From NCBI GenBank assembly GCA_007123105.1, contig SKNY01000102.1, positions 1 to 34,339 of the forward strand: DNA of 34,339 nt. Direction: 5' to 3'. Within the stretch, counting starts at the first letter, position 1, and every line of letters starts with the position of its first letter. Below, in pieces: positions 3,488-7,771 of the stretch. Source of the stretch: Salinarchaeum sp. (GTDB lineage: Archaea > Halobacteriota > Halobacteria > Halobacteriales > SKNY01). The notes below the pieces were generated by a model. That model ran no database searches and was not told the origin of the DNA. It worked only from the letters and a program-made list of their open reading frames with translations. The position numbers and the translations under genes were made by a program.

Positions 3488-4579
3488 TCAATGGATCGAT
3501 ATCGACGGTACCGAACGATTGGAGACGAAGATCGCAAGCAAGTAAATAGCGATCGCGACTACAACAATTGACCCACCCGACGGGAGGCCCTGCTGGATCG
3601 ACACACCGAAGCCGGCCAGAATCGACAGCTCTCCGAACAAAATCGAGAGATACAGCGTCTCCCGAAAGCTGTTCGCCACCTGCGAGGCGGCAGCGACCGG
3701 AACCACGAGCATCGCGGCGACGAGGATCACCCCGAGTATCTGCATCGCTCCGACCACGACCACAGCCGTCAACACGATCAGTAATGTGTTGTAGCGATTG
3801 ACGTTCAGTTGTGCGACGCGAGCTGCTTGTTCGTCGAACGTGATGAACAACAATTGCTTGTAGGACGAGGCCACGACGGCAACGACGACAATTGTGATGA
3901 TCGCCATCAGTTGCGCACCTTCAGGCGTGACGAAAGCGATACTCCCGAAGAGATATGATTCGATGTCGATTGCGATCGTCATCATCCCCCGTCCGTAGCT
4001 GATGAGGAGCGTCCCGATAGCGAAACTCCCGCTGAGCATGATCGCGATCGGGACGTCGCCGTATGTATTCGTCCGTTCAGCAAGCCACTGCACACCGAGC
4101 GCACCGATGATCCCGACGACGAGTGCGATGAGGAGTAACGACCCTCGCCACCCAGCAAGCGCACTGAACAGCACGCCGACTGCCACTCCAGCGAAGGCCG
4201 TGTGCGCTAGCGTTTCTCCGATAAGCGCCATCTCTCGGTGAACGAGGAATACGCCGATGACCGGCGCGGCGATGCCTATCAACACGCCGGTTGCCAGTGA
4301 TTGCCACATGAACGGGTGCTTGAAGACGTTCGTCCCGAGATAGAAGTCCATCCATTGACCGCCGACTAGGAACTGCTCGTAGAGAACCGTCCCGTACTGG
4401 TAGTCCCGGAGCCAGTAGAGTAGGATAAATCCGACCATCAGGAATGCGATGAGGCCAGTGACGGCAAGCCCAACGTGTTCGACGGTCCGTCTCCCTGGGA
4501 GGATCGCCTGAATGCGAGTGCGAGCACGGCTGGTGGTTGATTCGTCCTCGGTGTCGGTGCGAAGCGTATCTAGACTCAT
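3488..4579 (-). CDS. znuB: Zinc/manganese ABC transporter permease (ZnuB-like, ABC-3 family)
   Basis: This 363-residue integral membrane protein has hydrophobic segments from about residue 36 to the C-terminus. It carries the ABC-3 family hallmark HREMALIGETLAHTAFAG around residues 110-130 (first His to last Gly), which lies at the interface with the ATPase and is highly conserved in ZnuB/MntB/TroC permeases. The N-terminal 30 or so residues are hydrophilic and rich in Arg and Thr, an extension before the first membrane helix. It is the last gene of the minus-strand operon with the substrate-binding protein and ATPase and begins 2 bp after the ATPase stop. Zinc is the favoured substrate because the partner proteins are so His-rich. 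Manganese cannot be excluded. Confidence 0.9.
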   Translation of the reverse strand: MSLDTLRTDTEDESTTSRARTRIQAILPGRRTVEHVGLAVTGLIAFLMVGFILLYWLRDYQYGTVLYEQFLVGGQWMDFYLGTNVFKHPFMWQSLATGVLIGIAAPVIGVFLVHREMALIGETLAHTAFAGVAVGVLFSALAGWRGSLLLIALVVGIIGALGVQWLAERTNTYGDVPIAIMLSGSFAIGTLLISYGRGMMTIAIDIESYLFGSIAFVTPEGAQLMAIITIVVVAVVASSYKQLLFITFDEQAARVAQLNVNRYNTLLIVLTAVVVVGAMQILGVILVAAMLVVPVAAASQVANSFRETLYLSILFGELSILAGFGVSIQQGLPSGGSIVVVAIAIYLLAIFVSNRSVPSISIH

Positions 4580-4581
4580 TG

Positions 4582-5322
4582 TCAGTGATCGTGTTCGATG
4601 ATGCGGCTCGCCGTGCCGTACGCGTCAGTGAGCGCATCGCTTTCGAGAAACGACGTAGTATCTCCGTGATGGTACAGGTCCCGGTTGAGACACGCGATGT
4701 GATCGACGTGTTCGGTCACCACGCCAATATCGTGCTCGATCAGGACGATCGTGATCCCCTGTCGATTGAGATCGTCCAGTAGGTCGTAAAACTGCTCGCG
4801 TGACTCCGCGTCGACGCCAACAGTCGGTTCGTCAAGTGCGAGGAGCTCGGCTTCCGAGGCAAGTGCGCGCGCGATGAACGTTCGTTGCCGCTGGCCACCT
4901 GACAATTCGTTGAGTCGCCGATCGGCGAGGTCGGTGATGTCAACGGTTTCCAATGCCTCTTCTACAGTCTCGCGATCCATTGGATCAAGTCGAGATCGTC
5001 CACGGTGGGCGAACCGGCCCATGGTCACCACTTCACGGACCGTGACCGGCATCGTGGATCCGCGATTCGTTGACTGTTGTGAGACGTATCCGATCCGCTC
5101 ACCCGCTTCGAACTCGTCGAGTGGCTTCCCGAACAGGTTGACCGAGCCGGTGTCAGGCTCTAATAACCCCAACATGAGGTGTAAGAGCGTCGTCTTCCCT
5201 GAGCCGTTCGGCCCGATTAACCCGAGAAAATCACCGCGTTCGATCGTGAGCGACACGTCTCGAACCGCGACAGTTTCGCCGTATGCAAACGTAACGTCCT
5301 GAATGTCGACTATCGGAGGCAT
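4582..5322 (-). CDS. znuC: Zinc ABC transporter ATP-binding protein (ZnuC-like)
   Basis: From the ATG at 5320-5322 this is a 246-residue ABC ATPase, the usual length for ZnuC. It shows Walker A GPNGSGKTT, the signature LSGGQRQR, Walker B LLALDEP and the switch His in LIEHDIG. The frame is open further upstream to 5430, but that part overlaps the end of the substrate-binding protein gene and has no family character, so the internal ATG (MPPIVDIQDV) is chosen. It hydrolyses ATP in the cytoplasm to drive metal uptake through the permease encoded next to it. The C-terminus ends in a short His-containing tail (IIEHDH). Confidence 0.93.
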   Translation of the reverse strand: MPPIVDIQDVTFAYGETVAVRDVSLTIERGDFLGLIGPNGSGKTTLLHLMLGLLEPDTGSVNLFGKPLDEFEAGERIGYVSQQSTNRGSTMPVTVREVVTMGRFAHRGRSRLDPMDRETVEEALETVDITDLADRRLNELSGGQRQRTFIARALASEAELLALDEPTVGVDAESREQFYDLLDDLNRQGITIVLIEHDIGVVTEHVDHIACLNRDLYHHGDTTSFLESDALTDAYGTASRIIEHDH

Positions 5323-5416
5323 TGTGGCTTGACGTGTCGTGATGTATGTGGCTGTCGGACTGGATATTGCTGTCTTCGACGACGACCAGACGCGTCGCGG
5401 CGTCGGTAACGTTCGA

Positions 5417-6823
5417 TCACTCTTCCGCACCGAGTGCTGCCGTAAGCGACGGGATGTTAATCTCTTCCATCTGCTCGACCCATCCCCACTCGTTTTCGGC
5501 CCATTCCTGAGTCGTGCCTTCGGCAGGTGTGAGTGGTGCGACGTCGGTTGCGGAGCTATTCTCGACGATCGTTTCCGCGAGCGGCGGGATTTCCGTATCG
5601 GGATCCGGCGTCTCGAAGGGATCGTACAGGATCGTGTCGATCCCGTGTTCGTCTACGAGCTCGATCGTTGTGGCGATGTCTTCCTGGCTCGGTGATTGGT
5701 CCGGCGAAATCCCAGTCGGTGAATGTAGCTCGAACCCGTACCGATGTTCGAGATACTGGAAGGAGTCGTGCCCTGCGAAGACGGCCGTAGAGTGAGCGGC
5801 GTTTGCAGCGAGATCCTCAAACTGGGCGTGAACGTCGTCGAGTCGGCTCTTGTAGGACTCGGCGTTCGATTCGAACGTGTCTGCGTTGTCCGGGTCGATT
5901 GCGGAGAGTCCGTCGACGACGTTGTCGATGACCTGTTGGGCAAGGATCGGATCGACCCAGACGTGGGGGTCGTAGAACTCGTCGAGTTCCGCTTGCTCGA
6001 TCTCATCGACGACCTCGACGTCCATCGACGCCTCGTCGGTCTCCCAGAGCACCTCCCCGTCGTGGACGAGCTGGAAGACGACGAGGGTACGACCCGTTTC
6101 CTGGCCGATGAGATGGATATGATCTCCGTGGGACTCGATCTCGACGATTCCTTCGGGAGCGTTCTCTGTGAGCCGGGCGTCGAACTGGAACGGTTCGTCG
6201 TCACCGAGCGGAAGCACTCGACCCTGGTCGTCCTCGAAGACTGCTCGCAAAGAAACGCGACCGTCGATCGGTATTTCGGGAATCCCGCCGTGCCAGTGAT
6301 CGACGTGCCAATACGCCGAGACGCCGCCCGTATTTCTGTCGATAATGTCGAACCCCCCGACTTCCACGGTCTGCGGATCCCAGTCGTGGTCGTGATCCGG
6401 TTCGACATCCGAATCGGAATCGAACGCCAACAGCTGGTCGCGCGTGAATCCAGTCAATCCGTCGATGACGGCGATATCGTCGTAATCGCGCTCGAGTTGC
6501 GCTGCCACGTCCTGTGCCCACCGGAACTCGGGCGTATCGAGGTAGACGAACACGTCTGTACCGGCGATGTCTCGGGTGAGGTCCCCTTCGGGTTCCCAAC
6601 CGTGGCCCATCCGCCCGACTGGAACCGGATTCTCGAACGTGAGAGCGTCGCCAGCAACTTGCTCGGCCCAGTCCCAGAGGGTGAAGAACGCTGCGTACCC
6701 GGACGGATCATCGTCTGCTCCGGCTTCACCGCCCGGGGGCGAGCTACAGCCGGCGAGCGATCCGAGTACAGCAGCTCCCAACCCGCCTTTCAGGGCGGAT
6801 CGACGTGTGAGTTCCATAGTCAA
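5417..6823 (-). CDS. znuA: Zinc ABC transporter substrate-binding lipoprotein (ZnuA-like) with inserted His-rich domain
   Basis: This 468-residue lipoprotein starts with a twin-arginine-like signal (LTRRSALKGG) and a lipobox LAGC (Cys26). ZnuA landmarks are visible: H74 in GHGWEP, H287 in DPHVWVDP, H352 in AGHDSF and D401 in ILYDPFE, the positions expected for the metal site of cluster A-I binding proteins. Between the N-lobe and DPHVWVDP, where ordinary ZnuA has a short His-rich loop, lies a domain of about 125 residues (150-274). It contains VDHWHGG and SHGDHIHLIG and is plainly homologous to the two repeats of the lipoprotein encoded 15 bp upstream. The insertion makes the protein some 130-170 residues longer than typical ZnuA. 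An alternative start is the ATG two codons in. Confidence 0.92.
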   Translation of the reverse strand: MTMELTRRSALKGGLGAAVLGSLAGCSSPPGGEAGADDDPSGYAAFFTLWDWAEQVAGDALTFENPVPVGRMGHGWEPEGDLTRDIAGTDVFVYLDTPEFRWAQDVAAQLERDYDDIAVIDGLTGFTRDQLLAFDSDSDVEPDHDHDWDPQTVEVGGFDIIDRNTGGVSAYWHVDHWHGGIPEIPIDGRVSLRAVFEDDQGRVLPLGDDEPFQFDARLTENAPEGIVEIESHGDHIHLIGQETGRTLVVFQLVHDGEVLWETDEASMDVEVVDEIEQAELDEFYDPHVWVDPILAQQVIDNVVDGLSAIDPDNADTFESNAESYKSRLDDVHAQFEDLAANAAHSTAVFAGHDSFQYLEHRYGFELHSPTGISPDQSPSQEDIATTIELVDEHGIDTILYDPFETPDPDTEIPPLAETIVENSSATDVAPLTPAEGTTQEWAENEWGWVEQMEEINIPSLTAALGAEE

Positions 6824-6838
6824 CGATTCGGCAGGTGC

Positions 6839-7771
6839 TTATTCGTCCACGACGACGGCCTCGATCGACGGCGATTCGTAGTCAGCGTGGTCGTCGTGCC
6901 ACAGCTGGAACACCACTTCCGTCTCACCGACGGATTCTCCGATCAGGTGGACGTGGTCACCGTGGAAGTCGAAGTCGACGACGTCCTCCTCGGCGCCGTC
7001 GGCAACCCGAGCTCTGAACTCGTATTCTTCATCGGAGCCGATCGAAATTTCGTCGCCATGGTCGTCGATGAACCGCGCACCGAGGGAGACGTGATCGTCG
7101 ACCGGGATCTCGGGCAGTTCTCCGTGCCAGTGATCACCGTGTACGTCGGCGACGACCTCGTCGGTGCTCCGGTCGATAATCTCGAGTTCATCGACGTGGA
7201 CATCCTCGTGCTCGTGATCATCATGGTCGTGGTCGTCCTCGACGACCTGAGCCGTGATCTCCGGAGTTTCGTAGTCGGCGTGGTCGTCGTGCCACAGCTG
7301 GAAGACGACATCAGTGATTCCCTCCGCTTCACCGATGATATGGACGTGGTCGCCGTGATAGTCGAAATCGACGACGTCTTCAGCTGCCCCATCTGCGACA
7401 CGCACTCGAAGTTCGAACTCTTCGTCGCTTCCGAGCGGAATTTCGTCACCGTGATCGTCCTCGACGTAGGCTCCTAGGGAGATGTGGTGGCCTTCTTCAA
7501 CGTGTGGAAGCTCTCCGTGCCAGTGATCTCCGTGCACGTATGCCGCTACATCGTCGTGATCACGATCGATAATCTCGAACTCGGCAATCTCGAGGTGATC
7601 ATGGTCATGATCGTCGTGGTCATCGTCATGGTCGTGATCATCATGATCGTCATCGTCATGATCGTCATCAGTATCGCCTGGTTCCTCATCATCGCCGAGA
7701 CATCCAGCCAGTGCCGTGAGAGCGAGCACTCCAGCACCGCCCATAATTAGTTCGCGTCGAGTTCGGACCAT
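6839..7771 (-). CDS. His/Asp-rich lipoprotein with two tandem HGDHWHG domains
   Basis: From the ATG at 7769-7771 this is a 310-residue secreted lipoprotein with RTRREL, a hydrophobic stretch and the lipobox LAGC (Cys24). A His/Asp linker (residues 34-59, almost only D and H) follows. Then come two homologous domains at about 60-178 and 192-309, each with IIDR, HGDHWHGELP, SLGA, HGDEI, FHGDHVH or YHGDHVH, and VFQLWHDDHADYE. A second His/Asp linker (about 179-191) separates them. The same domain is inserted in ZnuA encoded directly downstream. The open frame continues upstream to 7978, but that part lacks these features. The protein is first in the operon and probably binds zinc outside the membrane for hand-over to ZnuA. 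This role is inferred from composition and position. Confidence 0.85.
   Translation of the reverse strand: MVRTRRELIMGGAGVLALTALAGCLGDDEEPGDTDDDHDDDDHDDHDHDDDHDDHDHDHLEIAEFEIIDRDHDDVAAYVHGDHWHGELPHVEEGHHISLGAYVEDDHGDEIPLGSDEEFELRVRVADGAAEDVVDFDYHGDHVHIIGEAEGITDVVFQLWHDDHADYETPEITAQVVEDDHDHDDHEHEDVHVDELEIIDRSTDEVVADVHGDHWHGELPEIPVDDHVSLGARFIDDHGDEISIGSDEEYEFRARVADGAEEDVVDFDFHGDHVHLIGESVGETEVVFQLWHDDHADYESPSIEAVVVDE

Follow-up and report, generated by a model that had tools for sequence, protein, structure and literature searches.

A histidine-triad domain present in two lipoprotein copies and one ZnuA copy in a zinc-uptake operon of Salinarchaeum, and its relatives in other metal importers

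A histidine-triad protein that feeds metal to the solute-binding protein (SBP) of a transporter is a known type of arrangement; the domain described here and its spread are the new part. In Streptococcus pneumoniae, the triads of PhtD bind zinc with a Kd of about 100 nM and pass it to AdcAII (PMC3842936). PhtD resembles the lipoprotein of the present locus in that repeated HxxHxH triads occur in a surface protein whose gene lies beside that of a zinc SBP, but the Pht unit is short and three-stranded, whereas the domain here is a sandwich of ~118 residues with two triads. The ZnuA protein encoded here also carries the shared domain, while AdcAII is not known to bear a Pht domain. The AztABCD system likewise pairs a surface or periplasmic zinc chaperone, AztD, with a His loop on the SBP AztC as receiver; AztD can pass zinc on only if this flexible loop is present and all three of its histidines are intact (PMC7463823). 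AztD is a beta-propeller, unlike the lipoprotein here, and the loop of AztC is short and flexible where ZnuA here has a folded domain. An actinobacterial anchored-repeat ABC transporter cluster (TIGR03772/03769/03773), which is Zur-regulated in Corynebacterium diphtheriae (PMC6711530), combines, judged by NCBIfam names, a zinc-type SBP with surface-anchored proteins that have a common repeat, but this repeat (TIGR03769) is a different domain; a look through 150 genomes for actinobacterial TIGR03772 proteins gave none, nor any control match, and so carries no weight. The classical ZnuA His-rich loop (AdcA, YcdH, haloarchaeal ZnuA) occupies the same position as the domain in the present ZnuA and precedes the DPHxW ligand; the loop is low-complexity, whereas the segment here is a folded homologous domain.

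Membership in the Pht, AztD or anchored-repeat families was rejected on profile tests. The lipoprotein and ZnuA gave no match to PF04270 (streptococcal histidine triad) or TIGR01363 (NCBIfam histidine triad); among 50 domain members, PF04270 matched four weakly (best E 3.8e-4), TIGR01363 one (E 0.048) and TIGR03769 none. The AztD profile NF038015 had no match in the lipoprotein and was present only as a fusion partner at one other locus, L072. No Pht structure was found within the 50 best Foldseek matches of the domain model (~11 strands).

The operon and its proteins

The window, that is, the whole 34,339-nucleotide stretch analyzed, contains the following features.

6839..7771, minus strand: Tat-type lipoprotein, 310 aa, with two domain copies (no Pfam or NCBIfam profile above cut-off)
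7238..7594, minus strand: domain copy 1 of the lipoprotein, two HxxHxH triads (copy alignment)
6845..7201, minus strand: domain copy 2 of the lipoprotein, two HxxHxH triads (copy alignment; AlphaFold pLDDT 98.0, pTM 0.90, all-beta)
5417..6817, minus strand: ZnuA-type solute-binding lipoprotein, 466 aa (PF01297, E 2.5e-47; AlphaFold model matches AdcA 7jj8)
6008..6367, minus strand: third domain copy, inserted in ZnuA just before DPHVW (tblastn, alignment, AlphaFold)
4582..5322, minus strand: ABC ATPase, zinc/manganese type (AztA-like NF040873, E 3e-58, under the equivalog cut-off)
3488..4579, minus strand: ABC-3 permease (PF00950, E 4.5e-60)

The gene order given in an earlier note on this DNA, lipoprotein followed by znuA, holds on the minus strand and continues with the ATPase and permease genes. 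The ATPase starts at an ATG at about 5322, not 5430, and for ZnuA the ATG at 6817 is likelier than the TTG at 6823. The lipoprotein begins with a Tat-type signal and lipobox, MVRTRRELIMGG...LAGC (TRRELIMGG...LAGC), as does ZnuA (TRRSALKGG...LAGC), and both proteins are therefore expected to be anchored facing outward from the membrane. Histidine makes up 11.6% of the lipoprotein, in which low-complexity His/Asp stretches precede domain 1 and form part of the linker between the domains; four HxxHxH motifs fall within the domains and three in these stretches. Searching the lipoprotein against Pfam and NCBIfam profiles returned no family above cut-off. ZnuA scored 162 bits against PF01297 (curated cut-off 29), and its operon is that of a cluster A-I zinc SBP, with the SBP fold and with ABC and ABC-3 permease genes alongside. 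The cleft ligands His72, His285, His350 and Asp399 are conserved (H72 in 28/28, H285 in 26/29, H350 in 29/29 and Asp at 399 in 27/29) and constitute a zinc-type set, with a third His instead of Glu (Zn/Mn rule). The source genome encodes a second ZnuA-family protein, which lacks the insert (G000:C84). A 577-codon open frame on the plus strand (5744-7477), antisense to znuA and the lipoprotein gene, is in all likelihood a by-product of GC-rich coding on the opposite strand.

The shared domain and its site in ZnuA

Alignment and tblastn bore out the earlier claim that one domain, of ~118 residues, is used three times, twice in the lipoprotein and once in ZnuA. The two lipoprotein copies share 69% identity, copy 1 and the ZnuA copy share 46%, and 45 columns are invariant across all three. 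Run against the whole genome by tblastn, the lipoprotein retrieved the corresponding part of ZnuA (50% identity, E=5e-31), far beyond chance. HGDHWHG and HGDHVHLIG, previously read as separate motifs, are both present but represent the same H-x-x-H-x-H pattern occurring twice per domain: H21-H24-H26 and H80-H83-H85 in lipoprotein copy 2, and residues 171-176 and 230-235 in ZnuA, which has two HxxHxH in total. Across archaea and several bacterial phyla, the residues of the triads rank with the best-conserved columns of the alignment.

Lipoprotein copy 2 was predicted by AlphaFold as an all-beta sandwich of ~11 strands, in which each triad forms a beta-hairpin turn between two strands; the models are metal-free. 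An Ig-like beta-sandwich, one of the two folds guessed earlier from pattern, is the probable class in view of this predicted structure and of Foldseek matches of the Ig-like class, the best being the Rib domain 9avk (E 6.9e-4, TMq 0.45), followed by the lambda gpV Ig domain, the S-layer protein SbsC and filamins. TM-scores to solved Ig-like domains were at most 0.58 among the matches listed, with no close relative there. The cupredoxin-like alternative fared worse: its only representatives were PmoB-type chains of AMO/pMMO with E-values near 0.01, and the Ig-like matches score better. No family in Pfam, NCBIfam or the PDB covers the domain, and a PDB sequence-profile search with it found nothing significant; the streptococcal histidine-triad family is the one weak match that recurs. 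The domain is undescribed, and its spread is unusual.

That the third copy sits at the site of the ZnuA His-rich loop was confirmed by removal of the insert and alignment to AdcA. The insert spans residues ~153-272 (counted from the ATG at 6817); once it is taken out, the rest of ZnuA matches AdcA (7jj8) over the full length, with the junction inside the His-rich loop of AdcA, EEEGDHDHGEEGHHHEFDPHVW. The AlphaFold model of ZnuA retains the SBP fold (AdcA 7jj8, E 2e-16, TM 0.87 by target), with the insert flanked by short, acidic/His linkers of lower confidence. The flexible His-rich loop that usually precedes DPHxW in zinc SBPs is missing, and the folded domain stands in its place. The domain profile hits none of the insert-free haloarchaeal ZnuAs used as a control; of the 22 readable cases, 18 have 6-15 His within 45 residues at the loop site, often as plain DDHGDDHHD repeats ahead of DPHVW. 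Since low-complexity His loops occupy the same place in these proteins, the folded domain replaces a disordered loop. Three insert-bearing ZnuA paralogues (L033, L034, L091) have Lys for the second cleft His (DAKFF for DPHVW), a substitution that suggests a different metal or an altered site.

The two triads are kept to different degrees in ZnuA-borne and separate copies. In the 104 ZnuA-borne copies, the three positions of triad 1 are His in 100/100/93%, and its first two His and the Trp are kept in 104/104, the third position being His (93%) or Asp (7%); triad 2 is His in only 45/57/27%. The corresponding values in 142 separate copies are 87/92/73% for triad 1 and 88/89/73% for triad 2. Many of these sequences are related, so that the counts are not independent. 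Even so, the difference is large and suggests a division into a capture copy that would use two triads and an acceptor copy that would use triad 1.

Proposed function and distribution of the domain

We consider it likely that the domain is a portable, folded module for the capture and hand-over of divalent metal, with its triads on hairpin turns. By analogy with the described systems, we infer that it binds metal and transfers it, in the direction from lipoprotein to ZnuA. The lipoprotein, with two domains, four triads and His/Asp tails, would enrich scarce zinc on the surface of the cell; the ZnuA insert, in place of the His-rich loop, would take zinc by its strictly kept first triad and hand it to the cleft (His72/His285/His350/Asp399), from which it would be imported through the ABC transporter. 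The insert may also work alone as a loop replacement. The presumed selective reason is the scarcity of soluble zinc in alkaline brine.

The domain is present in 52 of 294 haloarchaeal genomes. Of the 114 haloarchaeal domain genes located, 58 encode ZnuA fusions, another 38 are no more than 5 kb from ZnuA and 18 belong to neither group, which links the domain to metal uptake, as the earlier note had proposed, in 96 of 114 cases. By genome, the 51 besides the source genome comprise 35 with insert and separate copies, eight with the insert only and eight with separate copies only. These counts bear on the role of the ZnuA copy, which the earlier note had regarded as a docking site for the lipoprotein. 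The copy would then serve mainly for protein-protein contact by homotypic pairing, and metal would pass straight from the lipoprotein triads to the ZnuA cleft. In its favour, both partners carry the same domain, another copy is present in 35 of the 43 insert genomes, and much of triad 2 is lost from the ZnuA copy. However, the remaining eight insert genomes have no other copy, and in these the insert must function alone; a domain lipoprotein lies just upstream of only 31 of 58 insert-bearing znuA genes; the first two triad-1 His never vary in ZnuA copies, whether or not the genome has a partner copy; and other ZnuAs have a metal-handling loop at this very site. We therefore regard pure docking as unlikely. 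The lipoprotein-to-ZnuA hand-over in the earlier proposal still appears to fit best, while the docking copy as stated is unsupported: the absence of a second copy in 8/43 insert genomes, the limited adjacency and the preservation of triad 1 of the insert, the most strictly kept of all the metal motifs, suggest that the ZnuA copy most likely handles metal itself.

Outside haloarchaea the domain is rare, occurring in 2/291 members of the class of Tindallia, 8/189 of the phylum of Lujinxingia and 1/301 of the family of the flavobacterial match. Its neighbourhoods extend to other importers. At L072 it is fused to the zinc metallochaperone AztD (E 5e-28), and the operon also has ABC, permease and ZnuA genes. 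The cobalt ECF operon at L062 (4056-7702; order CbiQ-CbiO-domain-CbiM-NikL) has a domain gene between those for CbiO and CbiM and adjoins hemA and cobalamin genes, and the gene order is the same at L057, L059 and L065; at L155 (11126-15723) a domain gene is ahead of archaeal CbiM/CbiQ. At L096, domain lipoproteins in which the domain is fused to DUF4625 come after a TonB receptor whose closest profiles are haem and ZnuD ones, a CobW-type GTPase is close to the domain gene at L118, and Thermoplasmata ZnuAs (L046-L048) bear C-terminal copies in addition to the insert. Some of the 18 haloarchaeal genes distant from ZnuA sit in DUF7350/Fe2+-transport-protein operons, so not every relative serves zinc. 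Zinc alone is too narrow a role for the family, because cobalt ECF operons also carry domain genes. Extracellular sequestration of excess zinc or copper by the lipoprotein, as a buffer or for detoxification with no feeding of ZnuA, would agree with its high His content and the surface location predicted by its lipobox; we hold it to be very improbable, since the importer operon, the AztD fusion and the linkage to CbiM and to a TonB importer are all uptake systems.

Several further arrangements were observed at these loci. Distant relatives with an HWHG...SHWH signature lie beside DUF7350 proteins (L107:2611-5653, L131:3549-5370, L149, L169, L124), at L107 together with a PF10634 Fe2+-transport match and DUF7405, and perhaps serve iron or copper uptake. 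A second repeated haloarchaeal domain, LLAEEDIDHDHACLHAEFDERTPLEAG...THVIWEVTYEG (L037:5185-8301, L104:3144-3746, L043:3539-4078, L118:3456-4073, L128:8392-9015, L153:9259-9897), is joined to the first in large secreted proteins and occurs alone in nearby small lipoproteins; the one tested against Pfam gave no match. Degenerate domain lipoproteins at L137, L159 and L168 (around 5000-5700) are always directly 5' of a GTPase gene whose N-terminus resembles aIF2-gamma, and single-domain lipoproteins of ~150 aa at L101 and L151 are directly 3' of a gene with a purL-like N-terminus.

Evolution and occurrence in soda-lake datasets

In a tree of 146 copies, 40 haloarchaeal ZnuA inserts form one clade (SH-aLRT 99), and a second clade (SH-aLRT 98) contains most lipoprotein copies together with ZnuA inserts of Thermoplasmata and Mollicutes/Izimaplasma. 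Because the haloarchaeal ZnuA copies form a supported clade apart from the lipoprotein one, a recent duplication or gene conversion linking lipoprotein and ZnuA copies was rejected. A single origin of all ZnuA inserts was also rejected, by constrained monophyly (AU test, p=7.5e-5), which implies two or more entries of the domain into ZnuA. Part of the acidic, His-rich character of haloarchaeal proteins could be an effect of composition. Spacers are often Ig-like domains, and haloarchaea often have Asp/His-rich linkers, as in the loops of the insert-free ZnuAs, but a spacer with histidines incidental to a halophile proteome is also very improbable, given the conservation of the triads over archaea and several bacterial phyla and the choice by independent lineages of the same insertion site, that of the His loop.

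Kulunda soda-lake sample codes (PMC6146748 and PMC4766312) were found on 43 of 63 named loci, among them 18 of the 21 loci ranked bacterial by NCBI, in a locus scan that relied on motifs from the source contig's own domain copies. This excess is strong because the 2018 sediment study comprises 871 MAGs and the whole collection 84,980 genomes, with the reservations that the code list pools several soda-lake studies and that MAG binning errors may affect single contigs. Haloarchaeal isolates among the remaining named loci mostly have alkaliphile names. PLSDB contains no plasmid coding for a close relative, and thus no transfer vehicle was found. Taken together, we somewhat favour the view that this is a mobile metal-acquisition domain of haloalkaliphiles, which would have crossed between the two domains of life, archaea and bacteria, and become part of four or more uptake machines on repeated occasions (ZnuABC, an AztD chaperone, CbiMQO ECF transporters and TonB receptors), including several independent insertions at one and the same loop of ZnuA, as a common solution where levels of free divalent metal are very low, in soda brine.

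The role of the disordered His loop in zinc SBPs is a hard question, and it becomes testable here because nature has swapped the loop for a folded homologous domain with strictly kept ligands. A putative metal-capture family, absent from Pfam and NCBIfam, connects zinc, cobalt and possibly iron uptake, and its occurrence suggests trace-metal scarcity as a driver of gene exchange in soda lakes.
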